In this document: positions 1 to 29,344 of the stretch, piece after piece
How positions within the stretch are numbered: the stretch's first letter is position 1
Layout: every line of letters starts with the position of its first letter
Assembly (NCBI RefSeq): GCF_000300335.1
Contig: NZ_AMRM01000023.1
Span: 1-55,000 of the forward strand
From: Nitratireductor pacificus pht-3B
Lineage (GTDB): Bacteria > Pseudomonadota > Alphaproteobacteria > Rhizobiales > Rhizobiaceae
Direction of reading: 5' to 3'
DNA: 55,000 bases
Made by a program: the position numbers and the translations under genes
The notes under the pieces: model-generated
Databases searched by the model: none
The model's input: the letters and a program-made list of their open reading frames with translations, nothing else
What the model was told of the DNA's origin: nothing

Positions 1-58
1 CCGAAACACGCCCTTCCGTTACGTCGAGCTCCCGGGGAATGAAGATCGTCTGCGTCAT
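1..58 (-). CDS. Partial CDS, N-terminus of a possible alanine dehydrogenase/transhydrogenase-alpha-like protein
   Basis: Only the first 19 codons are in the window, reading MTQTIFIPRELDVTEGRVS. The start is an ATG at 56-58, preceded by a good ribosome binding site (GGAG). The opening resembles the beta-strand/PRE...TEGRVS start of alanine dehydrogenase, transhydrogenase-alpha and saccharopine-dehydrogenase-like proteins, but 19 residues cannot settle the family. It lies 97 bases downstream of the ABC ATPase in the same direction, so it is probably the next gene of that transporter operon. The rest runs off the left edge. Confidence 0.45.
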   Translation of the reverse strand, partial: MTQTIFIPRELDVTEGRVS

Positions 59-85
59 GCGGCTGCTCCACGCGCCTGCCGGTTG

Positions 86-145
86 GCCGGGGCAACGCCC
101 CGGCGGCACCAGTTCCGATAGGTTGGGTTGTCGGTCCGCGGACCG
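86..145. repeat. Two stacked inverted repeats in the gap after the ABC ATPase
   Basis: Positions 86-104 form an 8-bp G+C stem with a 3-base loop. Positions 132-145 are a perfect 14-bp palindrome built on GGTCCGCGGACC. Neither is followed by a T run in either direction, so they are not classical intrinsic terminators. They may be processing or mRNA-stability hairpins between the transporter genes and the downstream partial gene. Confidence 0.4.
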
Positions 146-154
146 GAGTGCCGG

Positions 155-955
155 TCAGTGGGAGACCAGCACGCCCTTGGCCTCGAAGATCTCGCGGATC
201 TGCCGGACATAGCCGTGATAGGCCTTGTCCTCATGGGTGCTGCCCCATTGGCGCGGGCGCGGCATGTCGATCTTGAGATCGAGGTCGATCCGTCCGGGGC
301 GCGGCGACATCACCAGCACGCGGTCGGCGAGGAAGACGGCCTCGTCGATGCCATGCGTGATGAAGAGAACCGTATTGCCGGCCTTGAGCCACATCGCCTG
401 CAGATCCATGATCATCTGCTCGCGCGTCAGCGCGTCCAGCGCGCCGAACGGCTCGTCCATCAAAAGCAGGCCCGGCTCCTGGATCAGCGCGCGGCAGATC
501 GCAACGCGCTGGCGCATGCCGCCGGACAGTTCCGAGGGATATTTGTTGCCGAAGCCCTCGAGGCCCACCTGGGTCAGGAGTTCCTCGGCGCGGACCCTGT
601 ACCTGGCGATGTCGAGCTTCTTGATCTCGATCGGCAGCAGGATGTTGTCGAGCACCGTGCGCCAGTAGAGCAGCAGGTCGGACTGGAACACGACGCCGAT
701 CTTGGGATGCGGCTTGCTGATCGTTTCGCCGTCGATCGCGATGGTACCGGTCGTGATCCCCGTCAGCCCTGCCATGAGGGACAGAAGGGTGCTCTTGCCG
801 CAGCCGCTGGGGCCGACCACGGCCACGAAGCTGCCCGGCTCGAACTGCAGGTCGATCCCGTCGAGCGCGACGACGTCGTCGTCCTCGCGCACCTCGTATG
901 TCTTCGACAGCCGGGAGATATCGACCGCTGCCCCGGTTTGACTGATGGCATTCAT
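155..955 (-). CDS. ABC transporter ATP-binding protein, nitrate/sulfonate/taurine (SsuB/TauB) type
   Basis: This is the cytoplasmic ATPase of an importer for a small organic substrate. At 266 residues it has the usual SsuB/TauB/ThiZ length. Visible motifs are Walker A GPSGCGKST (about residue 49), signature LSGGMRQR (about 143) and Walker B LLLMDEPFGALD (about 163). The ATG at 955 follows a GAGG ribosome binding site. It is the third gene of a binding protein-permease-ATPase operon on the minus strand, 66 bases after the permease. The operon promoter carries the same operator-like element as the catabolic genes further right, so the cargo is probably the substrate of those enzymes. Which substrate cannot be read from the ATPase. 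Confidence 0.9.
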   Translation of the reverse strand: MNAISQTGAAVDISRLSKTYEVREDDDVVALDGIDLQFEPGSFVAVVGPSGCGKSTLLSLMAGLTGITTGTIAIDGETISKPHPKIGVVFQSDLLLYWRTVLDNILLPIEIKKLDIARYRVRAEELLTQVGLEGFGNKYPSELSGGMRQRVAICRALIQEPGLLLMDEPFGALDALTREQMIMDLQAMWLKAGNTVLFITHGIDEAVFLADRVLVMSPRPGRIDLDLKIDMPRPRQWGSTHEDKAYHGYVRQIREIFEAKGVLVSH

Positions 956-1021
956 GGATTTGCCTCGCTTAACCTAACATGTGTCGTGGATGACTGATCC
1001 ACTCAGGGGCTTTCGGCTGGC

Positions 1022-1855: not shown

Positions 1856-1859
1856 AACC

Positions 1860-2852: not shown

Positions 2853-2956
2853 AGCTCTCCTCCCTGATGGGCGCCGGCAAGCGCCCTTTGATCGACCCGA
2901 AGGTCTGCCTCTCTCCCCAGATCGGAGCGTTCGGCATGCACCGTTATCTCCAATCT

Positions 2957-2992
2957 TGATCTCATAGTGTGATCACATTTACCGATTGTCAA
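2957..2992 (-). promoter_or_regulatory. Promoter/operator A of the importer operon (TGATC-N8-TGATC next to TTGACA)
   Basis: Two TGATC elements sit at 2957-2961 and 2970-2974, exactly 13 bases apart, with the second extending to TGTGATCACA. On the minus strand a perfect -35 TTGACA (2987-2992) lies 12 bases upstream of the nearer TGATC, so the element fills the -35/-10 spacer and -10 region of a promoter reading into the binding-protein gene. The same arrangement recurs at 5716, 12631 and 16809. Binding by the local GntR protein is inferred. Confidence 0.7.
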
Positions 2993-3365: not shown

Positions 3366-4382
3366 CTAGGTTTCGGTGAAAACGCTCTTCAGCGAGGCTT
3401 CGACCGCCGACCGCGTGAGGTCGCGGGCGATGAAGACGAGCCATCCGCGCGGCGTGTCTTCGGGCCAGCGCGGCAGATATTGCGGCGGATAGACGACGTT
3501 CTGCACGCCGTGGATCACCACGGGACGCGCGTCGCCGATCACCGGCAGCAAGCCCTTCACGCGCAGGATGGACTGGCCCCGACTGGCCAGCAGCAACTCC
3601 AGCCATTCGACAAAAGCCGGCCATTGCACGGGCCTGTCCAGCGTGACGGAGAACGTGTCGATGCCGTCGCTGTGCCTGCCGGATGCCGGGCCCTGGTCCT
3701 GGTCCTGGTCCTGGCTCAGGAAATGCGGCTGCCAGTCGTCGTCATCATGCGCGAAGATCGCATCGCTCGGCGGAAACCGCTCCATGCTCGATGTCAGGCG
3801 GCGAACGGAAGGGTTGATCCGGGCGATCTCCAGATCGAGGGCGTCGAGTGACCACGGCTCCACGAGATCCGACTTGGTGACCACCACGCAGTCGGCAAGC
3901 GCCACCTGCTGGACCGCCTCGCTGAAATCGCCGATGCTGCGGGCGCCGCTGACGCCGTCAATCGTCGTCACGATGCTGCCCGCCTGATAGGCGCGGCAGA
4001 GCCGCAGGTCACTCATCACGGCGTGCATGATCGGCGCCGGGTCGGCAAGCCCGGTGGTCTCCACCACAACCCTGTTGAATGCCGGCATCCTGCCTGTGCC
4101 GGCGAGCGATGCGAGCTCGGCCAGCGTCGATACGAGATCGTCGCGCACGGCGCAGCACAGGCAGCCGGACGAGAGGAGCACCACGTCCTCGGAGACCTCC
4201 CGCACCAGCAGGTGATCGAGCCCCACCTCGCCGAACTCGTTGATGACGACCGCCGTGTCGGCCAGCCCGGGCTCGCCGAGCAGATGCTTCAGGAACGTCG
4301 TCTTGCCGCTTCCGAGGAAGCCGGTCAGGACGTGAACCGGAACTCGTTCGTCGACGGTGGCGGCGGCCGGCAGCACGGTCAA
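3366..4382 (-). CDS. CobW/COG0523-family GTPase (metallochaperone)
   Basis: This 338-residue G3E-family GTPase is of the kind that delivers metals, often zinc, to client enzymes. Motifs seen are P-loop GFLGSGKTTF (about residues 21-30), the family hallmark GCLCC (about 73-77), and VVTKSDLV as the NKxD guanine-specificity motif. A CobW C-terminal domain follows. Between the two domains lies a His/Asp-rich loop (HDDDDWQPHF followed by a QD repeat and SGRHSDG), a likely metal-binding stretch. The QD repeat is encoded by a short CTGGTC tandem repeat at 3693-3716. The start overlaps the stop of the RidA gene (ATGA). Three metal-dependent amidohydrolases nearby are plausible clients; that link is inferred. 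Confidence 0.88.
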   Translation of the reverse strand: MTVLPAAATVDERVPVHVLTGFLGSGKTTFLKHLLGEPGLADTAVVINEFGEVGLDHLLVREVSEDVVLLSSGCLCCAVRDDLVSTLAELASLAGTGRMPAFNRVVVETTGLADPAPIMHAVMSDLRLCRAYQAGSIVTTIDGVSGARSIGDFSEAVQQVALADCVVVTKSDLVEPWSLDALDLEIARINPSVRRLTSSMERFPPSDAIFAHDDDDWQPHFLSQDQDQDQGPASGRHSDGIDTFSVTLDRPVQWPAFVEWLELLLASRGQSILRVKGLLPVIGDARPVVIHGVQNVVYPPQYLPRWPEDTPRGWLVFIARDLTRSAVEASLKSVFTET

Positions 4383-4843
4383 CGGACCTCGAACAAGGCC
4401 TCGATCTCGACGGGCACGTTGCGCGGCAGGGAGTAGCAGCCGATCGCGGCGCGCGCATGACGCCCCGCCTCGCCGAACACCTCGACCATCAGGTCGGATG
4501 CGCCGTTGACCACTTTCGGATGTTCTCCGAAATCCGGCTCCGCGTTGACGAAGCCGCCGAGCCGCACCACACCGACGACGCGGTCGAGATCACCGTCCAG
4601 CGCCTGCCGCAACTGCGCCAGCACATTGACGGCGCAGACGCGCGCGGCGGCCTGTCCCTCTTCGGTCGAGAAATCCGACCCGAGCTTTCCCGTGTAGAGA
4701 TCCTTGCCGTCACGGCTCGGCACCTGCCCGGAAATGAAGACCTGCGTTCCAAGGCGGCGGGCCGGAACATAATTCGCCGCAGGCGCCACGGTGGCCGGCA
4801 GGGTGATGCCCAGGCTGGCGAGTTTGTCGTCGATCTTTCCCAC
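4379..4843 (-). CDS. RidA/YjgF/UK114-family protein
   Basis: RidA-family proteins hydrolyse reactive enamine/imine intermediates or, in catabolic clusters, act as deaminases (as proposed for RutC in pyrimidine breakdown). The C-terminal signature RAAIGCYSLPRNVPVEIEA with its substrate-binding Arg is present. I chose a GTG start at 4843 because GAAGGAG lies 8-9 bases upstream and the protein then begins VGKIDDKLASLG, giving a 154-residue product. A longer reading to 4969 adds 42 residues that run into the upstream gene and look like shadow coding. It sits between the GntR regulator (25-base gap) and CobW (4-base overlap), so the three are probably one transcript. Confidence 0.88.
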   Translation of the reverse strand: MGKIDDKLASLGITLPATVAPAANYVPARRLGTQVFISGQVPSRDGKDLYTGKLGSDFSTEEGQAAARVCAVNVLAQLRQALDGDLDRVVGVVRLGGFVNAEPDFGEHPKVVNGASDLMVEVFGEAGRHARAAIGCYSLPRNVPVEIEALFEVR

Positions 4844-4868
4844 TCTGGCGAACTCCTTCGGACCAATT

Positions 4869-5642
4869 CTAACTGTCGAACTGCAATTCCAGGCCGTTGG
4901 CGAAGGGCAGCTCGATGCCCTGCGAACCAGCGACGCTGAGCAGCGCCTTGCCAGTGGTGCGTATGTCATGGACGCATCCCTTCTTGGCGGCAGCTACGTT
5001 GTTTTCCCTGAGCGCATTGAGGATGATCTCGTGATCGGACGCGTTCCACGGCATCGACGGGATCAGCAGCGACATGTACATCGTCGGCCCGAACTGCAGC
5101 CACAGCGACTCGATCAGCGGCATCAGCACTTCCGAGCCGGATGCCTCATACAGCGTGAAATGGAACTTCTGATTGAGCGACAGGCAGTTCAGGATGTCGC
5201 GTTTCTCGATGGCGATCAGCAGATGCTTGTTGACCTCCGCCAGCTCGTCGATGAGCGCCGGGGTCGCCTTGGCAGCGGCCAACTCGACGGCCATGCCCTC
5301 GAGCATCTCGCGAACGGCGAAAAGGTCGCTGAGTTTTTCCGGCCCGAGCCGGGGGACGCGGACGGAGCCGCCCTTCGTCTCCTCGAGAGCGCTTGCCGCG
5401 ACCAGCCGGCTGAGAACCTCGCGCACCGGCATGGGGCTGGTGCCGAGGCCGGCCGCCAGCTTGCGCAAGCTCATCACCTGCCCCGGCAGGAAGGCGCCGA
5501 CCATCAGCCCGCGACGCATGTAGCGCAGCACCTGTTCATGGACATGGCCGCGCGGAGGCTTCTCTCCGGGGTTGCCGTCAGTCCCTGATCGCTCGACCTT
5601 CTTGACCGGCATCCGCTCGCCTTCCGCAAATTCTTCGTTCAT
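4869..5642 (-). CDS. GntR-family transcriptional regulator, FadR subfamily (FCD domain)
   Basis: The protein has an N-terminal winged helix (GHVHEQVLRYMRRGLMVGAF, then SLRKLAAGLGTSPMPVREVLSRLVAA). An all-helical FCD ligand domain follows, with putative metal-binding acidic/His positions around ASDHEIILNAL and VHDIRTTG. Members usually repress catabolic operons and are released by a pathway acid. The start is taken at the ATG at 5642 because GGAG lies 8 bases before it; an ATG at 5678 and another at 5612 are alternatives. It is first in a GntR-RidA-CobW transcript and divergent from the cytosine-deaminase-like gene, with one of the four TGATC-N8-TGATC elements between them. It is the natural candidate to bind all four. 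Confidence 0.9.
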   Translation of the reverse strand: MNEEFAEGERMPVKKVERSGTDGNPGEKPPRGHVHEQVLRYMRRGLMVGAFLPGQVMSLRKLAAGLGTSPMPVREVLSRLVAASALEETKGGSVRVPRLGPEKLSDLFAVREMLEGMAVELAAAKATPALIDELAEVNKHLLIAIEKRDILNCLSLNQKFHFTLYEASGSEVLMPLIESLWLQFGPTMYMSLLIPSMPWNASDHEIILNALRENNVAAAKKGCVHDIRTTGKALLSVAGSQGIELPFANGLELQFDS

Positions 5643-5715
5643 TGCCGGCTCCAGACCGGCATCGGGACGAGACCCCATCGACGCCCCGTCATGGAATGGC
5701 CGAAACGGCCAAGCG

Positions 5716-5751
5716 TTGACAGGCGCTTATTTGTGATCTCATATTGTGATC
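5716..5751 (+). promoter_or_regulatory. Promoter/operator B of the cytosine-deaminase-like gene
   Basis: A perfect plus-strand -35 TTGACA (5716-5721) is followed 12 bases later by TGATC (5734-5738) and, 13 bases on, a second TGATC (5747-5751). A CATATT-like -10 overlaps the element. This is the same geometry as sites A, C and D but in the opposite orientation, matching the plus-strand gene it serves. It also lies about 90 bases upstream of the GntR start, so autoregulation is possible. Confidence 0.7.
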
Positions 5752-5852
5752 AATAAATGATTTTTGCCTGTCCGGCAACCGGAAATCGGCAGCTTTTCCC
5801 GGCCGAAACGCCACTCTTTCAGCGATCGCCTCAAGGGGCAGGAGGTGCCACC

Positions 5853-7217
5853 GTGACAACCTATTCGAGGGATCGGGACGATCTGCGCGCGATGCTCGCC
5901 CGCCTGGCCGGACAAGGGTCCTACAAGCTGCGCAACATCCGTCTCGATGCGACCCTGACCGGGATCGCCTCATCGGCGGCCGACGGTGACGATTTCCTCC
6001 TCTGCGACCTCGCCATCGAGGCCGGCAGGATACTCGCAGCAACTCCAGCGGGCATCAATGCCGACGATAGTTCAACCGATGCGATGCCGTCGATGGACGC
6101 CGGCGGACGCATCGCGCTGCCTCTCTTCGTGGACTGCCACACCCATCTCGACAAGGGACATATCCTCCCGCGAACCACCCTGGCGAACGGCTCGTTCCCG
6201 ACGGCGCTCACCCAGACGAAGGCCGACCGCGAAGCCCGCTGGACACGCGATGACCTGGCCCTGCGCATGGACTTCGCGCTGCGCTGCGCGCTGCATTACG
6301 GCACCGCCGCCATCCGCACCCATCTCGATTCCCACCCTCCGCAGGACGCCATCTCCTGGCCCCTGTTCGAGGAGCTCCGGCAGGAGTGGCGCGGGCGCAT
6401 CGAGCTGCAGGCGGCGAGCCTCGTCCCCATCGATTTCCTGCATGACGAGGACCTCCTCGCGAGGCTTGCGCGGCGGGTCTCCGGCGCGGGCGGCGTTCTG
6501 GGCGCCGTCACCTACCCGACGCCGGACCTGGATCGCTTGCTGGACCGCTTGTTCCAGGTGGCGTCACGGCAGGGGATGGATCTCGACTTTCATGCCGATG
6601 AAACAGCCGATCCCGCCGCCGACACGCTGCACCGCATCGCCCTCGCGGCAAAACGCAACCGCTTTCCGGGCCGCGTTCTCGTGGGACATTGCTGCTCACT
6701 GGCGAGACAGGACTCCGCCACGGTCGACGCGACGCTGGACGCCGTCGCGAGCGCCGGCATCGCCGTCGTGTCGCTGCCGACCTGCAATCTCTATCTTCAG
6801 GACCGCAGGCACGATGCGACGACGCCCCGGTGGCGCGGCGTCACCCTGCTGCACGAGATGAAGAAGCGCGGCATTCCCGTCGCGCTGGCATCGGACAACA
6901 CCCGCGATCCCTTCCATGCCTATGGCGACCTGGACATGCTCGAAACCTATCGGCTCGCCACGCGCGTCCTGCATCTGGATCATCCGACGGCCGACTGGCC
7001 GAGGGCGGTCAGCGCGACACCGGCCGAAATCATGGGCCTGTCAGGAACGGGCGTGATCGAGCCCGGCGGAAAGGCCGATCTCATCCTGCTCGAGGGGCGG
7101 TCCTGGTCGGAGGTCCTGTCGCGACCCGAGAGCAACCGGATCGTCCTGCGCGCCGGCCGTCCCGTCGACGCGCCCCTGCCATGCTATTCGGAGCTCGACG
7201 CGCTGACCGCCGGATGA
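5853..7217 (+). CDS. Amidohydrolase-superfamily protein, cytosine deaminase (CodA)-like
   Basis: This metal-dependent hydrolase is of the cytosine deaminase/isopropylammelide hydrolase group, which deaminates amidine-type carbons in rings. Visible metal and catalytic motifs are HTHLDKG (about residues 96-102), DFHADET, VGHCCSL and ASDNTRDPF. These correspond to the HxH pair, His/Glu, His and Asp of CodA. The GTG at 5853 was chosen because GGAGG lies 7 bases before it, giving 454 residues. An upstream ATG at 5757 would overlap the operator and has no site. It is transcribed alone and away from the regulator. The exact substrate (cytosine, isocytosine, creatinine or a triazine-like ring) is not determinable here. 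Confidence 0.85.
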   Translation: MTTYSRDRDDLRAMLARLAGQGSYKLRNIRLDATLTGIASSAADGDDFLLCDLAIEAGRILAATPAGINADDSSTDAMPSMDAGGRIALPLFVDCHTHLDKGHILPRTTLANGSFPTALTQTKADREARWTRDDLALRMDFALRCALHYGTAAIRTHLDSHPPQDAISWPLFEELRQEWRGRIELQAASLVPIDFLHDEDLLARLARRVSGAGGVLGAVTYPTPDLDRLLDRLFQVASRQGMDLDFHADETADPAADTLHRIALAAKRNRFPGRVLVGHCCSLARQDSATVDATLDAVASAGIAVVSLPTCNLYLQDRRHDATTPRWRGVTLLHEMKKRGIPVALASDNTRDPFHAYGDLDMLETYRLATRVLHLDHPTADWPRAVSATPAEIMGLSGTGVIEPGGKADLILLEGRSWSEVLSRPESNRIVLRAGRPVDAPLPCYSELDALTAG

Positions 7218-7332: not shown

Positions 7333-8322
7333 TCAGGCGCTGGCACCGACCTGATACAGCTCGACCTTGGTTCCATCGGGATCGGCGATATAGATGGTCA
7401 GGCCATAAGGCCCATCGTGCAGTTCGTTGAAGTAGCGGACGCCGGCCTTCTTCAGCCTGGCGTCCATCGCCCTGACGTCGTTGACCTCGAAGGCGATATG
7501 GTCGAGCTGCCTGTGCCCGGCCGTCTTGCCGCCGATCAGGGCGATGCCCTGGTGGAAGGCCGTGAAGGGCCGTCCGTCCGCCAGCGGTTTCGCCGGCCGG
7601 ATCGTGAAGCCGAGCTGCTTCGTGTAGAAATCGACGGACGCGTCGATATCGTCGACCATGATCAGCTGATGGCCGTAATTCGTCACCCGCGGCTTCACCT
7701 GCTCGCCGATCCAGCCGATCACCTCCGACGACTGGGCGACCTCGCAGAAATACTGTTTCCAGACCTGCTTTGCGGTCGCCTCCCAGTCGCCATTGACGCC
7801 CGACACGCAATCGTCCACGGCGATCACGTCATAGTCGCGCAGATAGGCTTCGCGAATGGAGGTCTCGACGCAGGCATTGGTCGTCGCGCCCGTCACGAAC
7901 AGGTGCTGCGTGCCCAGCATCTTCAGCATCATCTCCAGGCGCGTCTCATGGAAAGCGCCGAAGCGGTGCTTGCGGATGACGAAGGCCGGATTGACGTCGG
8001 CGAGCGGCTTCAGTTCGTCGATGATCTGCTCGTCCCAGCTTCCGGCGAGCGCCGAAACCTGCTTGCGCTTGGCCGTATGGCCGAGCAGCTTCTTCCTGGC
8101 GCGGTTGTGATCGATCGCGAAGTGTTCCTGCACGGTCCAGATGACGGGAATGCCCACCTCCTGGCAGCGCGCGATCAGCTTGGCGAGCGGCGGCACGATC
8201 GACGAGAGACGTTTCGTATCGACGCCGGAGATGCCGAGCGTTCCCTTGTCGTGAATGAAGGCGTTCTGCAGGTCGATGACGAGCAGGGCCGACTTGCGGT
8301 AGTCGAGGACGTCGAGGCTCAT
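7333..8322 (-). CDS. Isochorismatase-like cysteine hydrolase fused to a VOC (glyoxalase/dioxygenase) domain
   Basis: Residues 1-about 205 are an isochorismatase-family amidohydrolase with the full catalytic triad visible: Asp in ALLVIDLQNAF, Lys in VIRKHRFGAF and Cys in TGATTNACVETS. Relatives include N-carbamoylsarcosine amidase, ureidoacrylate amidohydrolase and biuret hydrolase. Residues about 215-325 are a complete VOC domain with likely metal ligands His (NYGHQLIMVDDID), His (LDHIAFEV) and Glu (GTKVELYQ). A single frame joins them without a stop, giving 329 residues. The start overlaps the tautomerase stop (ATGA). It is the last gene of the operon from 12519. The VOC half may open, isomerise or oxidise the ring product; that is inference. 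Confidence 0.85.
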   Translation of the reverse strand: MSLDVLDYRKSALLVIDLQNAFIHDKGTLGISGVDTKRLSSIVPPLAKLIARCQEVGIPVIWTVQEHFAIDHNRARKKLLGHTAKRKQVSALAGSWDEQIIDELKPLADVNPAFVIRKHRFGAFHETRLEMMLKMLGTQHLFVTGATTNACVETSIREAYLRDYDVIAVDDCVSGVNGDWEATAKQVWKQYFCEVAQSSEVIGWIGEQVKPRVTNYGHQLIMVDDIDASVDFYTKQLGFTIRPAKPLADGRPFTAFHQGIALIGGKTAGHRQLDHIAFEVNDVRAMDARLKKAGVRYFNELHDGPYGLTIYIADPDGTKVELYQVGASA

Positions 8323-8519
8323 GACTTGTTCTCCACCATGTCGATGCCGAGCACGCCGCCACGGCCCCAGCTCTCCTTCGGGGTCTCATGGATGACCACG
8401 TGCAGGTGGTCGGGCTTGCAGGCAGCCTCCTCGACCATGGCCTTGGTGATCGCCCTGACGAGGTTGCGCTTCTGCTCGACCGTGCGCCCCTCCCACATCT
8501 CCACAACAACGAACGGCAT
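8319..8519 (-). CDS. 4-Oxalocrotonate tautomerase-family protein
   Basis: This 66-residue protein is of typical 4-OT size. The start is placed at the ATG at 8519 so that the protein begins MPFVVVEMWEGR, with proline next to Met. After Met removal that Pro-1 is the catalytic base of the family. GAGGAG lies 7 bases upstream. An earlier in-frame Met would add MERRRR and bury the catalytic proline, so it is rejected. It overlaps the next gene by 4 bases and lies 1 base after the stop of the preceding gene. A keto-enol or imine-enamine tautomerisation step in the pathway is likely. Confidence 0.88.
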   Translation of the reverse strand: MPFVVVEMWEGRTVEQKRNLVRAITKAMVEEAACKPDHLHVVIHETPKESWGRGGVLGIDMVENKS

Positions 8520-8520
8520 T

Positions 8521-9201: not shown

Positions 9202-10547
9202 CACGCGGGCACGGTCACGCAGCGGCCGCGGCCGTAATGGCTGTCGTCGACGGCGCCGTTCTCGTAGACAATGTCGCCGCGCGCCACCGTCATCACCGGC
9301 CAGCCCTTGAGCGTCCAGCCTTCGTAGATGCAGGTTCCCTTGCCCGTGTGCTCGACGGTGCGCTCCTCGTCCAGATCGACCAGGACGAGATCGGCGTCAA
9401 AGCCGACATCGATATGGCCCTTGCGCGGCCACAGGCCGAAGCGGCGCGCCGGATTGAACGAGTTGAGCTCGACAAGCCGCGTCAGCGGCAGGCCGCGCTG
9501 GTGGACGCCGAAATGCAGCATCAGCGATAGCTCCCACGGGAAGCTGACGACGCCCGGAAATTCCGTCCAGAGGTCTTCCAGCTTCTTCGGCAGGAACGGG
9601 ACGTGATCCGTGCCGAGGCTGTAGACGGAGCCGTTCAGCATGCCGTTCCACAGGCCTTCGAGTTCGTTCCGGTCGCGCAGCGGCGGCGAGATCTTGGCGC
9701 GCATGTCCAGATCCTCGTCGTAGCAGGTGCGCGTGAGATAGTGCGGGCAGGTCTCGACCGTGACATGAACGCCACGCGCCTGCGCCTCGGCGGCGAGCAC
9801 CGGTCCCATCCCGACCGAGGTGTGGACGAGATGCAGAGAGCAGCCCGTCTTCTCGGCGAGGAAGATCATCCGCCGGATGGTCTCGACCTCGCAGAAGGCG
9901 GGGCGCGATTCCGTATAGGCGCCGAGGTCCTGACGGCCCGAGGCGGCGATCTCCTTCTTGATCCAGGAGGCGATCTGCGTGTTCTCGCAGTGGACGTTGA
10001 TCACACCGCCCGGAACCTGCGAGAGAATCCGCATCGCCGCATAGACCCAGCCGTCGGTCGCCGGGACGATGCCGATCGGATTGTCCGGCTCGTAGCCGAA
10101 ATAGCACTTGAAGGACTTGACCCCGGTCCTGGCGATGATCTCCGGGATCTCGGCGATATGCTCCTCGCGCTGGATGCCGAAATGGAAGCCGAAGTCGATC
10201 ACCGAATTCTCTTCGCCGATCGCCTTCCGCTCCTCGTAGAAAGGCAGATAGGATTCCTTCAGGTTGCGGATGTAGAGCAGCGCCGTCGTGACGCCGCCGG
10301 AAGCGGCTGCGGCGGTCTCCGTGCGCATGTCCTCGTCGAACGGGAACTTGACGCCCAGATGGCAGTGCGGGTCGATCAGGCCGGGCATCAGCACGCGGCC
10401 TTCCGCGTCGATCGTGCGCGCCGCGTCCGGCAGCACCGCGTCGGCGCCGGTCATGACGATCTTGCCGTCCTTGACCGCCACGCCGCCGTGAAATTCGCCG
10501 TCGTGCCGGACGACGCGCGCATTCTTGATAACCAGATCCGCCTTCAT
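9201..10547 (-). CDS. Cyclic amidohydrolase, hydantoinase/dihydropyrimidinase/dihydroorotase family
   Basis: This is a ring-opening metal hydrolase. Binuclear-site residues are visible: DPHCHLG (HxH, about residue 57), the carboxylated-lysine motif VKSFKCYFGYEP, VHCENTQI, LHLVHTS and the catalytic Asp in LGTDHVPF. The ATG at 10547 (MKADLVIKNARVV) follows GGGAG and overlaps the stop of the preceding gene (ATGA), giving 448 residues. Substrates of the family include hydantoins, dihydropyrimidines, allantoin and dihydroorotate. The operon context favours a catabolic cyclic ureide or lactam over pyrimidine biosynthesis. Confidence 0.88.
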   Translation of the reverse strand: MKADLVIKNARVVRHDGEFHGGVAVKDGKIVMTGADAVLPDAARTIDAEGRVLMPGLIDPHCHLGVKFPFDEDMRTETAAAASGGVTTALLYIRNLKESYLPFYEERKAIGEENSVIDFGFHFGIQREEHIAEIPEIIARTGVKSFKCYFGYEPDNPIGIVPATDGWVYAAMRILSQVPGGVINVHCENTQIASWIKKEIAASGRQDLGAYTESRPAFCEVETIRRMIFLAEKTGCSLHLVHTSVGMGPVLAAEAQARGVHVTVETCPHYLTRTCYDEDLDMRAKISPPLRDRNELEGLWNGMLNGSVYSLGTDHVPFLPKKLEDLWTEFPGVVSFPWELSLMLHFGVHQRGLPLTRLVELNSFNPARRFGLWPRKGHIDVGFDADLVLVDLDEERTVEHTGKGTCIYEGWTLKGWPVMTVARGDIVYENGAVDDSHYGRGRCVTVPA

Positions 10548-11434
10548 GATGCCTGCTCCCATATGCCTTCAATGCGCCTGCTGATCCCGGTCCACTGGCT
10601 GCGGCCGACGGTGATCGGCGCCCGCGAGCCCATGCCCCGCGCCCACACCGCCTTCAGGCCGAGCTCACCCGCCGCCTCGCGGTCGATCGTGCCGGGCGGG
10701 GCCGCCACATCGACCAGAAGCGCGTGCTTCGGCAGTTGCCGCAGCATGTCGCGCTGAAGGAGCCGCTTCGGCACGCTGCCGATCACGATGTCCACGCGCG
10801 GCAGGAAGCCGGGCATCTCTTCCAGCGTCAGGGCCTCCGCGCCGGCGGCGTGCGCAGCCGCGCGCTGCACCGGGTTGCGCGCCGCCACATGGACATGCGC
10901 CCCGAGCCCGACCAGCGTGTGCGTGAGAAGCGAACCGATCGTGCCCTGCCCGACCAGCAGGACGTTCGCCTTGTGGATGGTGATGTCGGTGTTCTCGATG
11001 ATCACCTTCAGGACGCCCTCGACAATGGCCGGGCCGCGCAGGAGCATCAGGTCCACATCCCACTCATACTCGTGCAGCGTGATGCCGAGCGCCTCGCAAT
11101 GCCCCTTCAGATTGGCGTCCGCCCAGCCGAGGATGATGTGTCCGGGCTTGTTCATCCCGGCCAGCATCTCCCGCGTCGGGATGATCTTCTCCGGGCATTT
11201 CGGCGCGAACAGCGCTCCCTCGGCAGTGATCCCCGGGATCGGGAACAGCGCGAAATCCGCCCCCTTCAGCGCGTCGGCCGCATCGCTCGCATGGTAGACC
11301 CCCTCGATGCCGCCCTCCGGCCAGGGAAAGCCGTAGGCGCGCACGCCGGCGCCGGCGCGCAGCGCGCAGCGGGCAATCTCCTGTTCACGGGCATCCCCGG
11401 CGACGACGGCGATGACGGTCTTGTCCCAACTCAT
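10544..11434 (-). CDS. Dipicolinate synthase subunit A (DpaA/SpoVFA)-like NAD-binding protein
   Basis: This 296-residue protein has the two-domain layout of DpaA. The N-terminal opening (VIAVVAGDAREQEIARCALRAG) carries the characteristic GDAR...E stretch. A Rossmann domain follows with NVLLVGQGTIG and the DpaA-like run VEGVLKVIIENTDITIHKAN. In spore formers DpaA with DpaB oxidises dihydrodipicolinate. Spore formation is not expected here and no DpaB (flavoprotein) gene is adjacent, so a different cyclic imino-acid or dihydro substrate is likely. The start overlaps the octopine-dehydrogenase-family gene by 4 bases and the stop overlaps the hydantoinase start. Confidence 0.8.
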   Translation of the reverse strand: MSWDKTVIAVVAGDAREQEIARCALRAGAGVRAYGFPWPEGGIEGVYHASDAADALKGADFALFPIPGITAEGALFAPKCPEKIIPTREMLAGMNKPGHIILGWADANLKGHCEALGITLHEYEWDVDLMLLRGPAIVEGVLKVIIENTDITIHKANVLLVGQGTIGSLLTHTLVGLGAHVHVAARNPVQRAAAHAAGAEALTLEEMPGFLPRVDIVIGSVPKRLLQRDMLRQLPKHALLVDVAAPPGTIDREAAGELGLKAVWARGMGSRAPITVGRSQWTGISRRIEGIWEQAS

Positions 11435-12519
11435 TGCACACGCACCTTCTCGATCAGCTGGTCCCTTGTCAGGCCGGCAATGCCCATCGCCTCGGCCGTC
11501 CGGCCGCCCTGGCGGTAGTCCGTGCCGACCGCGATCTCGGCGAGATTGTAGAGGGACCGCGCCACGGGCGTTTCGACCTCTGCGATCCGCGCAAGTTCGA
11601 GGAACGGCAGCAATCCGTGGCCGAAGTCCTCCTTGTAGTAGCGATACTCCAGCGAATCCGGCCCCTTGATGCGCTTGTTGGCCTCGCCCCCGGCGATCGC
11701 CGCGCGAAAATCGCTCGTGTCCTCAACATCCGCCTCGACCGTGCCGAGCAGCTTCATCTCCTCGATCAGGTTCGGCAGGTCGTGCCCGAAGGCCCGGGCG
11801 ACCGCGAGGCGCTCATCGTCGAGCTTTTTCATGATGCGCGCCACACCGGGCGTCATGGCATCGACATAGAAGGTGAAAGCTCCGCCCGTCGCCTCGACCC
11901 ATGCCGCCGCGAGGACGGCGCCCGGAGGATGCAGGATCATGTTAACGTTGGACAGGTCCGAGGCGATCACGTCGGCGACCGGCTTCACGCCGGGATAGAG
12001 CAGCGCCGCGACGTCAAGCGCCGCCGCGTCGCCGCCGAGAACGGCGGCTTTCAGCTCTTTCGCGCGACCGCTGACCGTCACCCCGTCAGGACGGTATTTG
12101 CGTGCCACATAGGTGAGCGTCGAGAACTCGACAACCGGCGGTGCGGCCCGACCGGTTCGCGAGAAGGTCTCGGCGAACTCGAGCGCTCCGCCGGTATGGC
12201 CGGGGTTGAGCACCACGGGCTTCTCCGACGGCCAGCCCGCCGCCGCCAGCGCTCCTGCGATGGCGGAATGCGAAAAGGTCGGCAGCACCACCACCGCGAC
12301 GTCGACGCCGGCGATCGCCGCCGCGAGATCGGTCGTGATCAGCCCCGGGCGGGCGACGCCCTCGCCCAGCTTTCCCTCATAGGCGACGCCGCCCAGCGCG
12401 ACATGCGGCTCGAGCGTTCCCGCCGAACGCGCCCAGAAATGCACCTCATGTCCGGCCTGGACCAGCTCCGCGACCGAAGCCGCGCCACCCGCGCCCGCGC
12501 CCAAAACTGCAACTTTCAT
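11431..12519 (-). CDS. NAD(P)-dependent octopine/nopaline dehydrogenase-family protein
   Basis: The protein has a Rossmann opening MKVAVLGAGAGGAASVAELVQAGHEV and the C-terminal octopine dehydrogenase-type helical domain, 362 residues in all. This family oxidises or forms secondary amine bonds (opines) and includes ketopantoate-reductase-like relatives. The ATG at 12519 follows GGAGGAGAG immediately; the reading upstream to 12558 adds 13 unlikely residues. It is the first gene of the minus-strand operon that runs to 7333, and promoter C lies about 110 bases upstream. With the DpaA-like protein it gives two nicotinamide-dependent steps in one operon. Confidence 0.83.
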   Translation of the reverse strand: MKVAVLGAGAGGAASVAELVQAGHEVHFWARSAGTLEPHVALGGVAYEGKLGEGVARPGLITTDLAAAIAGVDVAVVVLPTFSHSAIAGALAAAGWPSEKPVVLNPGHTGGALEFAETFSRTGRAAPPVVEFSTLTYVARKYRPDGVTVSGRAKELKAAVLGGDAAALDVAALLYPGVKPVADVIASDLSNVNMILHPPGAVLAAAWVEATGGAFTFYVDAMTPGVARIMKKLDDERLAVARAFGHDLPNLIEEMKLLGTVEADVEDTSDFRAAIAGGEANKRIKGPDSLEYRYYKEDFGHGLLPFLELARIAEVETPVARSLYNLAEIAVGTDYRQGGRTAEAMGIAGLTRDQLIEKVRVQ

Positions 12520-12630
12520 TCTCTCCTCCGAGGGCCAAAGAGCGGTTAGTATCGCCATGTGACCTCATCTGACGGCGCACCGGCTCCCGCCCTCCTCGAC
12601 GGGTATCGGCACAAACGCCATCAAATTATT

Positions 12631-12665
12631 TGATCACACTTTATGATCACATATTGAATTGTCAA
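12631..12665 (-). promoter_or_regulatory. Promoter/operator C of the ODH-to-isochorismatase operon
   Basis: TGATC at 12631-12635 and 12644-12648 are spaced 13 bases apart. On the minus strand TTGACA (12660-12665) is the -35 and TAAAGT lies 16 bases further as a -10 candidate inside the element. The core is nearly identical to site D (TGATCACACTTTATGATCA). The surrounding gap 12520-12827 holds nothing else I can support. Confidence 0.7.
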
Positions 12666-12827: not shown

Positions 12828-14267
12828 TCAGTTTCCTTCGTCGTAGAGCGTCGTCGTGGTCTCCACGTCATCTTGATGCAGGCCGGCGCGCACGACCGCC
12901 GCGGCCGCCAGTTCGCGCGCCTTGCGCCGCACCTCCACCTCGTCGACGCCCTGCACCCGTCCGTTGCGGTACAGCGCCTTCCCGTCCACCCAGGTCTGGC
13001 AGACCGAAGCCGTGGACGCCGAGAACACCAGCGCTTGCAGCGGATCGTGGAAAGGCGTCCACTCGACGTGGTCGAGATCGAACAGGATGAAGTCGGCTTT
13101 CTTGCCGATCTCCAGCGAGCCGATCTCGTCATCCCACATCAGCGCACGCGCGCCCTCGATCGTCGCCGCACGCAGGGCCTGCCGCGCAGTGAAGATATCC
13201 GGCTGCATGCGCGCGTCCTTGAACATGCCGGCGACCATCAGCATCTGCCGCATCAGGTTCATGTTGCCCGCCGCCGACACGCCGTCCGTGCCGAGCCCGA
13301 CCTTGACGCCGGCCGCGACCATCTCGGGATACTTGCCGATCATCGTCGCACCCTTCCCGAGCTTGAAGGAGGAGCAGGGACAGAAGGCCACGCTCGCGCC
13401 ACGCTCGGCCAGCAGCCGCACCTCCTCGTCGGACACGGCTGAACCGTGGGCGATGACCAGATTCTTGCGGACGCCGCCGGCACGATCGACGCGGGTGATC
13501 GGCCAGCAGCCATACTTGCTTTCGCAGACCTTGGCTTCCTCGATCGACGTCGCCAGGTGATAGGTGGTGCCGACGCCGAGTTTCTCGGCGAGCGCCACCG
13601 CACCGACATGCAGCTCGAGGCTGCACGGTTCCTTGCCTTCGATGTTGACCCAGCAGCGAGCGCGCCCGTCCAGCGTGTTGTTGTAGCGCACGACACACTC
13701 TTCCAGCACCTTCAGCGCCGACTCCGCGTCGGGGAAGAAGTGATGGTCGGCCATCTCCTTGGTCCAGCCGCGCGGCAGTTCCGCCGGAGGATTGTCGGCA
13801 GCGTGACGCCCGGTGATCCCGCGCATGCCGGTCTTTTCCATGGCGCGGATGACGATGCCGGGATCGTACTGCGACCCCATGTCGAGGAAGCATGTGGTGC
13901 CGCAGCGGAGCATTTCGGTAATGCCCAGCATCGCTCCCCAGTACTCGTCCTCCTCCGTGATATGGGCATAGAACGGCTTGGCCCAATGGAAGACCCAGGC
14001 CCGCGTCGTGAGGTTGTCCGGGAAGACGGCGCGCGACAACGTCTCGGAAAGATGCACATGGCTGTCGATGAAGCCGGGGCACGCCCCCATCATGCTGCCG
14101 TCGATGACCTCGTCGAAGCTTCCGGCATTGTGACGCGAAGCGATTTCCCGGGCGGGTCCGATATCCGCAATCCGGTCATCCTCGACGACGATGCTCGCAT
14201 CGCGCAGCACCGTGTCGTCCTCGTCGACCGTAAAGGCAAAGTTCAGGTTCTCGATAAGCGTACGCAT
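12828..14267 (-). CDS. Amidohydrolase-superfamily protein, SsnA/TrzN/S-adenosylhomocysteine-deaminase-like
   Basis: This 479-residue enzyme belongs to the chlorohydrolase/aminohydrolase subfamily with a mononuclear metal. Motifs are DSHVHLSE (HxH), TYHLATSIEEAK, VIAHGSAVSDEE and LGTDGVSAAGNMNL. The ATG at 14267 has GGAG 5 bases upstream; an extension to 14348 adds a Pro/Arg-rich stretch without support. Relatives deaminate or dechlorinate purine- or triazine-like rings, or act in selenate/xanthine-linked clusters (SsnA). It is the third gene after the enolase-superfamily and M24 genes and adds a third amidohydrolase to the island. Confidence 0.85.
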   Translation of the reverse strand: MRTLIENLNFAFTVDEDDTVLRDASIVVEDDRIADIGPAREIASRHNAGSFDEVIDGSMMGACPGFIDSHVHLSETLSRAVFPDNLTTRAWVFHWAKPFYAHITEEDEYWGAMLGITEMLRCGTTCFLDMGSQYDPGIVIRAMEKTGMRGITGRHAADNPPAELPRGWTKEMADHHFFPDAESALKVLEECVVRYNNTLDGRARCWVNIEGKEPCSLELHVGAVALAEKLGVGTTYHLATSIEEAKVCESKYGCWPITRVDRAGGVRKNLVIAHGSAVSDEEVRLLAERGASVAFCPCSSFKLGKGATMIGKYPEMVAAGVKVGLGTDGVSAAGNMNLMRQMLMVAGMFKDARMQPDIFTARQALRAATIEGARALMWDDEIGSLEIGKKADFILFDLDHVEWTPFHDPLQALVFSASTASVCQTWVDGKALYRNGRVQGVDEVEVRRKARELAAAAVVRAGLHQDDVETTTTLYDEGN

Positions 14268-14380
14268 GCGGCTCCACCCAATTCTCTGGCCAGGAATTTC
14301 CATTTGCGCCGTGCCGCTCGATGACGGCAAGGGCCTCCGCGGCGGCACTCATGCTGCCGCGGACTGTCTTTCAGGCGTCT

Positions 14381-15553
14381 TCAGGCGACGGCCTGCCGCT
14401 TGCCGCTTTTCTTGGCGGCTCCGGTAACGATCAGCCGGTCCGTGTCGGCATAGTCGGACAACAGTTCCGAGCCGTTGGCCGTCACCAGCAGCATGTCCTT
14501 GTTCTGCATGCCGAACCCGTAGCCCGTGTCATAGCAGAGCGGCTCGAAGCCCAGCACCATGTTTTCCTCGAGCGGCGCATCGCTGCCCGGCTGGCCGAGC
14601 ACTGGCGTCAAGCCGAGATAGGGATCCTCGTGCAGGTGCAGGCCGATGCCATGCCCGACGAACGAGATCGGCGGCAGGTCGAGCCTGGCGAGCTTGGCGA
14701 TGAACGCGTCGTAGATCGCGCGGCAGCTCGCGCCCGGCTTCACCTTCTCCATGATTTCGTACTTGCACTCGACGAGATGGCTCCAGATCTCATCGGCCAT
14801 CGGCGGCGCCTCGCCGACGACGGCCGTGCGGCAGACGCCAGCCTGATAACCGTTGATCACCGAGAAGATCTCGACCCGGCAGACATCGCCGCGCTTCAGG
14901 ATCCGTTCCGAGGGGCCCACATTGGGAAGCGTGCTGCGCTCGCCGGTCGCGACAATGAGGAGCTTGAAATGCTCGGCGCCGAGCGAATAGACGTTGCGGG
15001 TCAGATGGCCGGCAATGTCCATCTCCGAATCCCCCTCGTCCACCATGGCGAGCGTGTCGGTGATGGCCTGGTCGGCGATCCGCGACAGCCGGCGCAGGAG
15101 ATCGATTTCCCCGGCGGTTTTGATCTGTCGCAGACGCGCCAGGATCGGTTCCGCATGCTCGAAGCGCGCGCCCGGCATGGCCGCCGCCAGCCGCGCGAAA
15201 TCCCCGGCCGGCAGATAGTCCATCTCGATACCGATCCGCGCCTTGCCGAGGCCCAGCGTGTGGAGCTGGTCGGCCAGCACCCGCATCGGGTCGTCGGAGA
15301 ATTCCGCCCAGATGCGTGTCGGCAGATCCGGCAGCTTCCGCCTGATCGTCGATGCCTCCATGTCGACGCCGAAGACTTCCTTCCGCCCATCCGCCGTCAC
15401 GATGGTCATGGCGTGGCGATGCCGGATGAGGGGCTGCGACGGCACGACGAAACCGGCCGTGTAGGCGAAATTCTCGGGCGACGAGCAAATGATGGCGTCG
15501 ATCCCGTGCTCGGACATCGCCTTTGTCTGCTTTGCGACGATTTCTGACCGCAT
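14381..15553 (-). CDS. M24-family (pita-bread) protein, creatinase-like
   Basis: The 390-residue protein has the creatinase N-terminal domain and the M24 pita-bread domain. In metal-dependent M24 peptidases two Asp ligands sit in a VDxG...DxTRT stretch. Here that stretch reads CRVEIFSVINGYQAGVCRT, so both aspartates are missing, as in creatinase (LNTF...GYYTALERT). The His loop GHGIGLHLHEDPYLG is kept. It is therefore more likely a metal-independent hydrolase of an amidine or ureido compound than an aminopeptidase. It follows the enolase-superfamily gene by 33 bases, with GGAGAGGGG upstream of the ATG. Confidence 0.83.
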   Translation of the reverse strand: MRSEIVAKQTKAMSEHGIDAIICSSPENFAYTAGFVVPSQPLIRHRHAMTIVTADGRKEVFGVDMEASTIRRKLPDLPTRIWAEFSDDPMRVLADQLHTLGLGKARIGIEMDYLPAGDFARLAAAMPGARFEHAEPILARLRQIKTAGEIDLLRRLSRIADQAITDTLAMVDEGDSEMDIAGHLTRNVYSLGAEHFKLLIVATGERSTLPNVGPSERILKRGDVCRVEIFSVINGYQAGVCRTAVVGEAPPMADEIWSHLVECKYEIMEKVKPGASCRAIYDAFIAKLARLDLPPISFVGHGIGLHLHEDPYLGLTPVLGQPGSDAPLEENMVLGFEPLCYDTGYGFGMQNKDMLLVTANGSELLSDYADTDRLIVTGAAKKSGKRQAVA

Positions 15554-15586
15554 CTGTGTTCCCCTCTCCTAGGATGTTGTGTGCGC

Positions 15587-16747
15587 TCAGTCGCGCAGGC
15601 GGTACTTCTCGACCTTCGCCTCGTCGACATCGATGCCCATGCCGGGTCCGTCGGGAATGACGATGGCGCCGTCGGAAAGCTGCATCGGCGCGACCAGCAG
15701 GTCGTCCTTGTAGTAGATCCCGCCGACCTGCCCGTTCTGCGCCTCGGCCGGCGTGGAAACCGGGATGACGCAGGACAGTGTCACCGCCGGACAGGCGGCC
15801 GCCAGCTGCACATTGGCGAGATTGCCGATACCGGTCTCGATCGAGCCGTTGACGTTGCAGATGATCCCCGCGGCGCGGCACACGGCGCCGACCTCCATGG
15901 CCTTGTAGAGCCCCCCGGCCTTGGTCGTGTAAATCGAGATGATCTGGATGCCGCCATGCTGGATGATCTGGATGGCGTCGTGCGCGTTCCATGCGGATTC
16001 GTCCGCCATCACCGGCGCGTCGATGCGCCGGCCGACCTCGGCGATGCGCTCGATCCCCATGACCGGCTGCTCCACATATTTGAGCCGGTTCTTCTCCATC
16101 AGGCGCACCGTCTGAACGGCCTCGCCCGGCATGCGGTATCCTTCATTGGCGTCGACGCAGATCTCCACCGCATCGCCGGCGACCTCGCGCACCGCATCGA
16201 CCATGGCGACGTCCCGGGCAGGATCGACGCCGATCTTGACCTTGATGGTCTTGATCCCTTCGTCGACCAGCTTCGCCACCTCGCCGCGCGCCTCCTCGAT
16301 CGAGATCAGGCCGATGGAATGGGTGACCGGCACCCTGTCGCGCGCCTTCCCGCCGAGCAGCGTGTGGACGGGGACGTTCAGCCAACGGCCCGTCACGTCG
16401 TAGGCGGCAAATTCCACAGCGGCCTTGGCATAGGGATAGCCGCGAATGATCGCATCCATCCGCGCATGCAGCTCGGCGAAGTTTCCGAGTTCCACCCCGA
16501 TGACGGCGGGCGCCAGATAGGTGTCGATGACCGAGCGCACGATCATCGCCGATTCACCGAAATAGCGTCCGAACTCGCCGCCCCAGTCCTTGAGCGCGGG
16601 CGCCTCGCCCCAGCCGACACGGCCATCGCTGTCGGTGATCTTGACCATGACATAGCGCCCGATCACCTCGGTCAGACCCGCCCATTTGTGCTCGCGGCGC
16701 GTCGGCAGTTGGACAATCAGCGTTTCGACGGACTTAATCGTTGGCAA
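15587..16747 (-). CDS. Enolase-superfamily enzyme (mandelate racemase/muconate lactonizing group)
   Basis: This 386-residue protein has a complete MLE-type active site: KxK in TIKVKIG, metal ligands Asp (CVDANEGY), Glu (YVEQPV) and Asp (MADESAW), and the second-face Lys in YTTKAGG. The MLE subgroup includes muconate cycloisomerase, dipeptide epimerase and N-succinylamino acid racemase. The reading opens with TTG (TTG CCA ACG ATT) after AAGGTGAAG; no better ATG is near, so a TTG start is accepted. It is the first gene of the operon ending at 12828, with promoter D about 60-100 bases upstream. Confidence 0.86.
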   Translation of the reverse strand: MPTIKSVETLIVQLPTRREHKWAGLTEVIGRYVMVKITDSDGRVGWGEAPALKDWGGEFGRYFGESAMIVRSVIDTYLAPAVIGVELGNFAELHARMDAIIRGYPYAKAAVEFAAYDVTGRWLNVPVHTLLGGKARDRVPVTHSIGLISIEEARGEVAKLVDEGIKTIKVKIGVDPARDVAMVDAVREVAGDAVEICVDANEGYRMPGEAVQTVRLMEKNRLKYVEQPVMGIERIAEVGRRIDAPVMADESAWNAHDAIQIIQHGGIQIISIYTTKAGGLYKAMEVGAVCRAAGIICNVNGSIETGIGNLANVQLAAACPAVTLSCVIPVSTPAEAQNGQVGGIYYKDDLLVAPMQLSDGAIVIPDGPGMGIDVDEAKVEKYRLRD

Positions 16748-16808
16748 CGGTCTTCACCTTGTTGGTTGTCATGCAGGGTGCGGCTTGCTAAGCTGCGATC
16801 ATCTAATG

Positions 16809-16844
16809 TGATCACACTTTATGATCATGAATTTGAGTCGTCAA
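16809..16844. promoter_or_regulatory. Promoter/operator D between the enolase-family operon and a small plus-strand gene
   Basis: TGATC at 16809-16813 and 16822-16826 are 13 bases apart, with the first in TGTGATCACA. On the minus strand TTGACG (16839-16844) is a -35 and TAAAGT, 17 bases on, a -10. The element sits between divergent genes, so it could also control the small gene at 16910. Confidence 0.68.
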
Positions 16845-16909
16845 GCGACGGGCGTGATGATTTTCAGGAGCGCCGGACACGCGGGTGCACGATGCGGGGG
16901 CACGACAAG

Positions 16910-17212
16910 ATGATCGTCGAAATCACCAATTACTTTGCCAGGGAAGGTCAGTTCGACGCGGTGCTGGAACAGCGCCGCAAGGCGACCGCGATCCGGCGCG
17001 ATCTCGGCCTCGATCCCGGCCGGATCTTCGCCAGGCTGGAAGGGGATGGTCCCGACCTGCGCTGGGAGTGCAGGTTCCCGACCCGGCAGGCCTACGAAGC
17101 GGACCGTGCAGCGCGCGCCGGATCGCCGGCATTCGAGGCCGCCAAGACGCAGATGCATTCCCTGCTGACCCGCTTCGAGCGTCACGTCTACACGGACGAC
17201 ATCGACCAGTAG
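16910..17212 (+). CDS. Small NIPSNAP/dimeric alpha-beta-barrel-like protein
   Basis: This 100-residue protein starts MIVEITNYFAREGQFDAVLE and contains a beta-alpha-beta ferredoxin-like pattern with RFPTRQAYEADRAAR. That resembles NIPSNAP or ABM-type proteins found as small partners in degradation clusters. The ATG at 16910 has GGGGG 9 bases upstream; an ATG at 16892 (MRGHDK...) is in frame and possible. It is divergent from the enolase-family operon and shares its regulatory gap, so it probably belongs to the island. The function is not known. Confidence 0.65.
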   Translation: MIVEITNYFAREGQFDAVLEQRRKATAIRRDLGLDPGRIFARLEGDGPDLRWECRFPTRQAYEADRAARAGSPAFEAAKTQMHSLLTRFERHVYTDDIDQ

Positions 17213-29336: not shown

Positions 29337-29344
29337 ACCGGTCA

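Follow-up and report, generated by a model that had tools for sequence, protein, structure and literature searches.

What does the island of about 18 neighbouring genes at the start of contig NZ_AMRM01000023.1 of Nitratireductor pacificus pht-3B (RefSeq assembly GCF_000300335.1) allow its host to take up and break down? We analysed positions 1 to 55,000 of the forward strand of this contig, and by the window we mean that whole stretch of 55,000 nucleotides, the first 17,212 of which hold the island. An initial annotation had described the island as one regulon for the catabolism of a heterocycle, with a core resembling creatinine deamination, extra redox and isomerase steps, and a gene set matching no described pathway. 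Profile scans of the window proteins, and for the tautomerase the annotation of its orthologues, placed every family named there in the position assigned to it, and to these can be added a VOC domain fused to the amidase, a 227-amino-acid protein, a CobW-family GTPase, the start of a PntA-like gene, and a gene for about 100 amino acids. The island looks like an undescribed uptake and breakdown route for a nitrogen-containing ring compound, and the most defensible statement about it is that it forms a catabolic regulon for an N-heterocycle, made up of two modules and probably under GntR control, for which we name no substrate.

The unity of the island can be followed through a palindrome that is common to its intergenic regions and was also seen among the repeats of the window. 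A pattern derived from four window sites, TGATCACAMTWTRWGATCA, matches exactly at positions 2957, 5734, 12631, and 16809, and with up to three mismatches it has eight matches in the window on both strands, versus at most one in 100 dinucleotide shuffles. The four candidate operators lie upstream of the transporter genes (2957 to 2975, minus strand), between the GntR and CodA-like genes (5734 to 5752, minus strand), upstream of the opine-dehydrogenase operon (12631 to 12649, plus strand), and between the enolase operon and a divergent small gene (16809 to 16827, plus strand, with a weaker overlapping copy at 16796 to 16814). A looser pattern, TGATCACANTNTNNGATCA, allowed up to one mismatch, retrieves just the four island promoter sites in the genome of 4,466,205 bases, and a control with the pattern written backward retrieved none. 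Because the operator, at up to one mismatch, is confined within the genome to these four promoters, and recurs in relatives, the sequence comparison supports the reading of the island as one regulon, as first proposed, and the shared operator speaks against independent expression of the operons. The GntR protein encoded in the island is probably the regulator acting at these candidate sites.

Related islands were collected by a species-wide scan (one genome per species) seeded with the DpaA-like protein, which turned up 45 loci where the island is present wholly or in part. Together with the window and four plasmids (L012 to L015) these form a table of 50 loci, referred to here by number, and 31 of them, 26 with the hydantoinase, have at least 6 kilobases (kb) on each side and are termed full-flank loci. 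The DpaA-like gene is present in all 31 by construction, as the seed, and the tautomerase and VOC genes are likewise present in all 31; the enolase-superfamily, M24, and GntR genes occur in 30 each, the opine-dehydrogenase, hydantoinase, and 227-amino-acid protein genes in 26 each, the SsnA-like, RidA, and CobW genes in 25 each, and the CodA-like gene in 18. The neighbourhood comparison suggested in the initial annotation accordingly finds DpaA-like, opine-dehydrogenase, and hydantoinase genes together, within a set found through the first of them.

The same table separates the enzymes into two modules, one (module U) comprising the SsnA-like protein, the hydantoinase, and the RutB-like amidase domain, and the other (module L) comprising the DpaA-like, tautomerase, VOC, enolase-family, and M24 proteins. 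The hydantoinase occurs in 36 of the 50 loci, and all 34 of these that can be assessed encode a full-length isochorismatase-VOC fusion, the contig ending first in L016 and L035. Among the 14 loci without hydantoinase, a stand-alone VOC protein was found in 12 and not in L058 or in L059, where the contig ends at the DpaA-like gene; the opine dehydrogenase is absent from 13. Module L is thus also present in loci that have neither the hydantoinase nor the amidase domain, and these two are gained and lost jointly. The converse case is L093, found through a hydantoinase search, in which the SsnA-like protein is 76%, the hydantoinase 69%, and the amidase protein 49% identical. A comparison confined to one stretch of that genome (L093, L094) found no DpaA, tautomerase, enolase, M24, or opine-dehydrogenase match there. 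The H/H/E triad, shared by all 24 aligned VOC members, has been lost from the VOC domain of L093. The proposed logic of a hydantoinase acting with a ureido amidase is supported by this pattern, since gain or loss of the hydantoinase is matched by that of the amidase domain, and the extra redox and isomerase functions are present as a module of their own. The island as an observation is confirmed and strengthened, and the interpretation first placed on it is partly supported.

When up to two mismatches are allowed, TGATCACANTNTNNGATCA occurs in 34 of the 36 hydantoinase loci and in none of the 14 others, giving 118 sites with overlaps merged and at least four sites in 21 loci, with none in the reversed-sequence control; the two loci without a site are L016, which is only 3.8 kb long, and L045. 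Hyphomicrobiales loci repeat both the gene order and the operator sites, and rearranged versions with operator sites occur in loci titled Rhodobacteraceae, Variovorax, and Pandoraea. Judged from these sequences, the recurrence of gene order and operator is more than chance. L098 is another rearranged case, in which the enolase match is weaker (44%). Some sites stand beside additional genes: in L042, a one-mismatch operator lies between ThiO-like and opine-dehydrogenase genes, with ThiO-like and SoxA-like genes beside the site, and on the side of VanA a PRK12393-type amidohydrolase gene has a two-mismatch operator at its 5' end. In both L015 and L025, a one-mismatch operator precedes an extra substrate-binding protein gene followed by an amidase gene.

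The island is patchy in its distribution, and it is plasmid-borne in at least three genera. The DpaA-like protein matched 18 plasmid records, 14 of them at 80% identity or more (10 from Aminobacter, three from Shinella, and one from Phyllobacterium), and the four plasmids that were opened, from these same genera, all show the conserved gene order, which insertions interrupt in three. A second plasmid of Aminobacter aminovorans, NZ_CP015008.1 (143 kb), bears a portion of the island; the SsnA match there spans only 47% of the query. Many carriers are soil and water bacteria. Counting the window genome in each case, the hydantoinase was found in nine of 297 genomes of the family (E of 1e-150 or better), the SsnA-like protein in one of 385 genomes of the class (1e-150 or better) and in five of 397 genomes of the order (1e-120 or better), and a full-length DpaA-like match in one of 60 genomes searched, the window's own. 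The opine-dehydrogenase family is a poor marker on its own because it is common in genomes of the class (21 of 385 at 1e-20 or better, window genome included, the others all at 40% identity or less).

The enzymes encoded around the core vary among species. Xanthine-dehydrogenase-family molybdenum hydroxylase genes accompany 10 of the 14 loci without hydantoinase (L041, L043, L044, L046, L048 to L051, L054, and L059) and four of the 36 with it (L035, L037, L045, and L055), as well as L093. VanA-type oxygenase and reductase genes adjoin three Bradyrhizobium islands (L028, L030, and L033), and a VanA gene is present in L042; Pfam scans of these neighbourhoods covered L028 and L042. The CodA-like gene is found in 18 of the 26 full-flank hydantoinase loci, and four of the eight without it (L028, L030, L033, and L055) show a VanA-type or molybdenum hydroxylase gene nearby. 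At the other end of the presumed route, a D-amino-acid dehydrogenase gene is present in 15 and a malate synthase G gene in nine of the 31 full-flank loci, and both are present in the Aminobacter islands that were opened. We infer from these neighbourhoods that related compounds may be funnelled into one core, from which an amino acid and glyoxylate would be released.

In our judgement the island is, with somewhat better than even likelihood, a single catabolic regulon, probably GntR-controlled, in which module U opens a cyclic ureide and module L processes the remainder. An NMT1-type ATP-binding cassette (ABC) importer would bring in the N-heterocycle, and entry enzymes that differ between species (the CodA-like protein here and, in some other islands, a molybdenum hydroxylase, a Rieske VanA-type oxygenase, an amidase, or a different deaminase-like enzyme) would convert variants of it to one oxo form. 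Module U would then open the cyclic-ureide ring and release its carbamoyl group as ammonia and carbon dioxide, and module L, with the opine-type dehydrogenase and RidA, would convert what is left into amino or keto acids, perhaps including glyoxylate. Literature searches on the gene set and on candidate chemistries, covering part of the literature, found no description of the full set, as the initial annotation had anticipated, so that about 18 conserved genes with a shared operator form a catabolic unit to which no pathway is assigned in the literature searched. The modular gain and loss makes the question of the substrate directly testable, as it yields predictions about the enzymes that work one after another, and the operator offers a readout for inducer screening. 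The DpaA-like, M24, and muconate-cycloisomerase-like proteins, now named by family only, are candidates for new reactions.

Several observations weigh against this account. The 45 scan loci were found through the DpaA-like protein, so the counts are conditional on it, and many of the loci are close relatives. The operator, searched with up to two mismatches, is found in none of the 14 loci without hydantoinase, which leaves their regulation unexplained. L058, a contig of 9.3 kb, has SsnA-like and DpaA-like genes without a hydantoinase, so that the SsnA-like protein is not strictly tied to it, and in L110 the SsnA-like gene, its frame broken, stands alone, with no hydantoinase, amidase, DpaA, opine-dehydrogenase, enolase, or M24 match within 15 kb. 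The step of the SsnA-like protein is itself not clear because the usual catalytic glutamate is missing: the HxxE glutamate, which we take to be the catalytic residue of SsnA/TrzN-group deaminases, is a threonine in 30 of 30 aligned orthologues, the window included, and is retained in E. coli SsnA, in GuaD, and in the PRK12393 paralogue of L042. The likeness of the VOC domain to glyoxalase I and fosfomycin-resistance proteins leaves its step unexplained as well. As for the entry enzymes, the CodA-like gene is missing from L026, L027, L034, and L052, where no substitute for it was seen, and L037 has CodA-like and molybdenum hydroxylase genes together. The window island has neither the D-amino-acid dehydrogenase nor the malate synthase G gene, and L014 matches them only in pieces.

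Among the more specific readings, the one that fares best would make the island an undescribed aerobic pathway for a fused pyrimidine, possibly a pterin or other pteridine, a proposal to which we give low confidence. The hydantoinase and RutB-type amidase would remove the pyrimidine ring by hydrolysis, and a DpaA/opine-dehydrogenase module, also serving routes initiated by molybdenum hydroxylases elsewhere, would dismantle the rest. Applied to a lumazine- or pterin-like compound, this means that module U removes the pyrimidine ring and that module L degrades a pyrazine-type ring to an N-carboxyalkyl amino acid, which the opine-type dehydrogenase splits; we consider it rather unlikely in this form. 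The SsnA/TrzN group includes pterin deaminases, although the SsnA-like protein here is without the deaminase glutamate. Ten loci have module L beside a molybdenum hydroxylase and without module U, which would fit a substrate with a second ring left over from the action of module U, and the two loci with an SsnA-like gene and no module L gene, L093 and L110, both have GTP cyclohydrolase I (FolE) and molybdenum hydroxylase genes close by, L110 with a PTPS-family gene in addition. This FolE pattern (two of two loci) was, however, noticed after the fact, and the overall frequency of GTP cyclohydrolase I, three of the 72 searched stretches (L093, L110, and L015, some stretches overlapping), does not clearly exceed chance. 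Moreover, the FolE and PTPS families are biosynthetic, and L110 is the locus whose SsnA frame is broken.

We would like to record the composition of these two loci separately. L093:4406-13827 encodes GTP cyclohydrolase I, GHMP-family and OMP-decarboxylase-family proteins, and a HAD hydrolase beside the SsnA, hydantoinase, and amidase genes, and L110:6862-23826, from an unannotated Neorhizobium plasmid record, holds GTP cyclohydrolase I, PTPS-family, molybdenum hydroxylase (recognised by eye), broken SsnA, luciferase-like, DHODH-type, and M20 genes.

A monocyclic substrate would suit another scheme, in which an N-carboxyalkyl hydantoin, dihydropyrimidine, or glycation product is converted by the hydantoinase and amidase to an opine, to be split by the opine-type dehydrogenase. 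That dehydrogenase is nearest to CENDH (PDB entry 1bg6, E of 4e-53), in which the island resembles opine metabolism of the octopine/CENDH family, and D-amino-acid dehydrogenase or ThiO-like genes are found in related islands. Unlike in opine metabolism, no other opine-catabolism gene was recognised in the window island, and the scheme gives no account of module L where it occurs without module U and, in 13 of the 14 loci, without the opine dehydrogenase. We regard it as unlikely.

Creatinine, the model for the core in the initial annotation, is not supported as the general substrate. Creatinine breakdown by deamination uses a deaminase, a hydantoinase, and a carbamoyl amidase of the isochorismatase family, and sarcosine or glycine would then be oxidised to glyoxylate. 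All three enzyme types are present in the island, with active-site motifs (as we take them to be) that look intact in alignments, and the D-amino-acid dehydrogenase and malate synthase G of the Aminobacter islands would suit the later steps. Creatinine is nevertheless not supported by the comparison of loci, because the CodA-like gene is absent from eight of the 26 full-flank hydantoinase loci; in addition, module L occurs without hydantoinase and amidase, and about ten further proteins would be left unexplained. The amidase was rightly placed in the isochorismatase family; its likeness to N-carbamoylsarcosine amidase (1nba, E of 2e-9) is weaker than that to RutB (8bkd, 8e-22); its nearest structure is the cysteine hydrolase 6xix (3.2e-22), and it scores 82.1 bits against the RutB equivalog TIGR03614, below the cut-off of 377.95. 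A creatinine or hydantoin pathway is very unlikely in our view.

The reductive uric acid pathway of E. coli (XdhD, YgfK, SsnA, HyuA, YgeW, YgeY, and YgeX) proceeds, as described in PMC12507026, through a molybdenum enzyme, a reductase, SsnA, HyuA, and removal of a ureido group. It is the nearest described logic: the island shares the SsnA/TrzN-type amidohydrolase, the hydantoinase, and ureido-group removal, and some related islands have a molybdenum enzyme. A variant of it, in which NAD(P)-dependent dehydrogenases stand in for YgfK, would follow the same idea. However, the proteins are far apart (23% identity between the SsnA-like protein and E. coli SsnA, 32% between the hydantoinase and HyuA), the SsnA-like protein reaches 114.1 bits against TIGR03314 with its cut-off of 455.5, and the rest of the set differs. 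Unlike the E. coli pathway as given there, the island is without a YgfK/UacX-type reductase or a diaminopropionate lyase, no YgfK-, UacX-, YgeW-, or YgeX-type Pfam family being found among the 17 window proteins scanned; it has a RutB-like amidase instead of YgeW, and additional tautomerase, VOC, enolase, M24, DpaA, and opine proteins. With an OHCU decarboxylase elsewhere in the genome as a further point against it, we hold such a variant to be improbable.

The familiar pyrimidine routes, reductive (Pyd) and Rut, resemble the island in hydantoinase-type ring opening and in having a RutB-like amidase and a RidA-family protein; unlike them, the island has no PydA-type reductase or RutA-type monooxygenase among its scanned proteins. 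The introduction of PMC12507026 names both routes. As the function of the island, ordinary catabolism of purines or pyrimidines was set aside, as the genome carries its markers, OHCU decarboxylase and PreA respectively, on other contigs, and a link to metformin or other xenobiotics, suggested by the names of Aminobacter strains, was dropped, the island being present in many other genera.

The window begins at the contig end, and most island genes lie in four minus-strand blocks, with operons assigned from gene spacing and frame overlap. The first block encodes the importer (155 to 2852), with the NMT1-type substrate-binding protein (1860 to 2852, PF09084), the permease (1022 to 1855, PF00528), and the ATPase (155 to 955, PF00005), followed by the start of the PntA-like NAD(P) transhydrogenase gene (2 to 58), which is cut by the contig end; its translation resembles the PntA start of L013, and PntAB genes follow the ATPase gene in L012 to L015. 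In L087 and L088, both from Mesorhizobium sp. L-8-3, there are two copies of the PntAB transhydrogenase genes, one on each side of the island. The second block encodes the GntR/FCD protein (4869 to 5678), the RidA family protein (4379 to 4843, PF14588/PF01042, with a probable GTG start judged from the translation), and the CobW-family GTPase (3366 to 4382), the first and last assigned by profile match. The CodA-like deaminase gene stands alone on the plus strand (5757 to 7217; NF005759, 587.1 bits against a cut-off of 403).

Six overlapping frames make up the third block. The opine-dehydrogenase (octopine/opine) family protein (11431 to 12558) scores 124.8 bits against PF02317, above the cut-off of 30. 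The DpaA-like dehydrogenase (10544 to 11434) is nearest to dipicolinate synthase A; it falls below the equivalog cut-offs of TIGR02853 and NF006162 (173.8 of 319.65 and 186.5 of 261 bits), and its N-terminal domain PF16924 is above its own. The hydantoinase/allantoinase-like cyclic amidohydrolase (9201 to 10562) rests on a profile match and alignment. The 227-amino-acid conserved protein (8521 to 9204) has no Pfam or NCBIfam match; its structural model is good (mean predicted local distance difference test score, pLDDT, of 87.5), and the best PDB matches, ThoJ, phytanoyl-CoA hydroxylase, and CytC3 (E of at least 0.003, query template-modelling scores below 0.45), weakly suggest a phytanoyl-hydroxylase-type fold. 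The 2-hydroxymuconate/4-oxalocrotonate-tautomerase-like protein (8319 to 8537, likely start at the internal MPFVVV) is named from the annotation of its plasmid orthologues and was not itself scanned. The block ends with the RutB-like ureido amidase fused to its C-terminal VOC domain (7333 to 8322), assigned by profile, structure, and locus comparison. The VOC model (pLDDT 94.0) best matches glyoxalase I and Fos proteins, and its H/H/E triad, present in the alignment, is compatible with a ring-cleaving dioxygenase. That role is no longer favoured: Foldseek gave 358 matches with an E of 0.001 or better, and the 50 of them that were listed are forms of glyoxalase I, fosfomycin-resistance or antibiotic-binding proteins, or other members of the VOC type, with no extradiol dioxygenase named among these 50.

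The fourth block consists of the enolase-superfamily gene (15587 to 16747, muconate-cycloisomerase-like by profile match), the M24 gene (14381 to 15553), and the SsnA/TrzN-like gene (12828 to 14348), the last two assigned by profile match and alignment. The M24 protein, of the creatinase/prolidase fold, is without a full metal ligand set: at the five positions that we take to be the ligands of prolidase 5cdl, the changes are D to E, D to G, and E to K, with one H and one E kept. Muconate-type (aza-muconate) chemistry for the enolase-family protein had been suggested by the PcaD and CMD genes of L046, L049, and L051, and was set aside, as these may be mere neighbours. Divergent to the enolase gene is the gene for about 100 amino acids (16910 to 17212, plus strand, start near 16910), which has no Pfam match and in other species, too, is found next to the enolase gene as a conserved neighbour. 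A second, paralogous operon of opine-dehydrogenase, M24, and enolase genes (32 to 47% identity), followed by a luciferase-like gene, was seen in L083:17-4384 and L084:12167-18001, close to where the genomes of L041 and L054 carry their islands; the luciferase-like Pfam assignment was checked for L083 only.

Two further features of the window lie beyond the island. At positions 28602 to 35565, a second isochorismatase-family gene adjoins what appear, from translations judged by eye, to be dipeptide/oligopeptide ABC transporter genes. At positions 44021 to 51972, a frame of 2053 amino acids resembling filamentous haemagglutinin is accompanied by a possible ShlB-like frame, and the pair looks, again by eye, like a two-partner secretion system.

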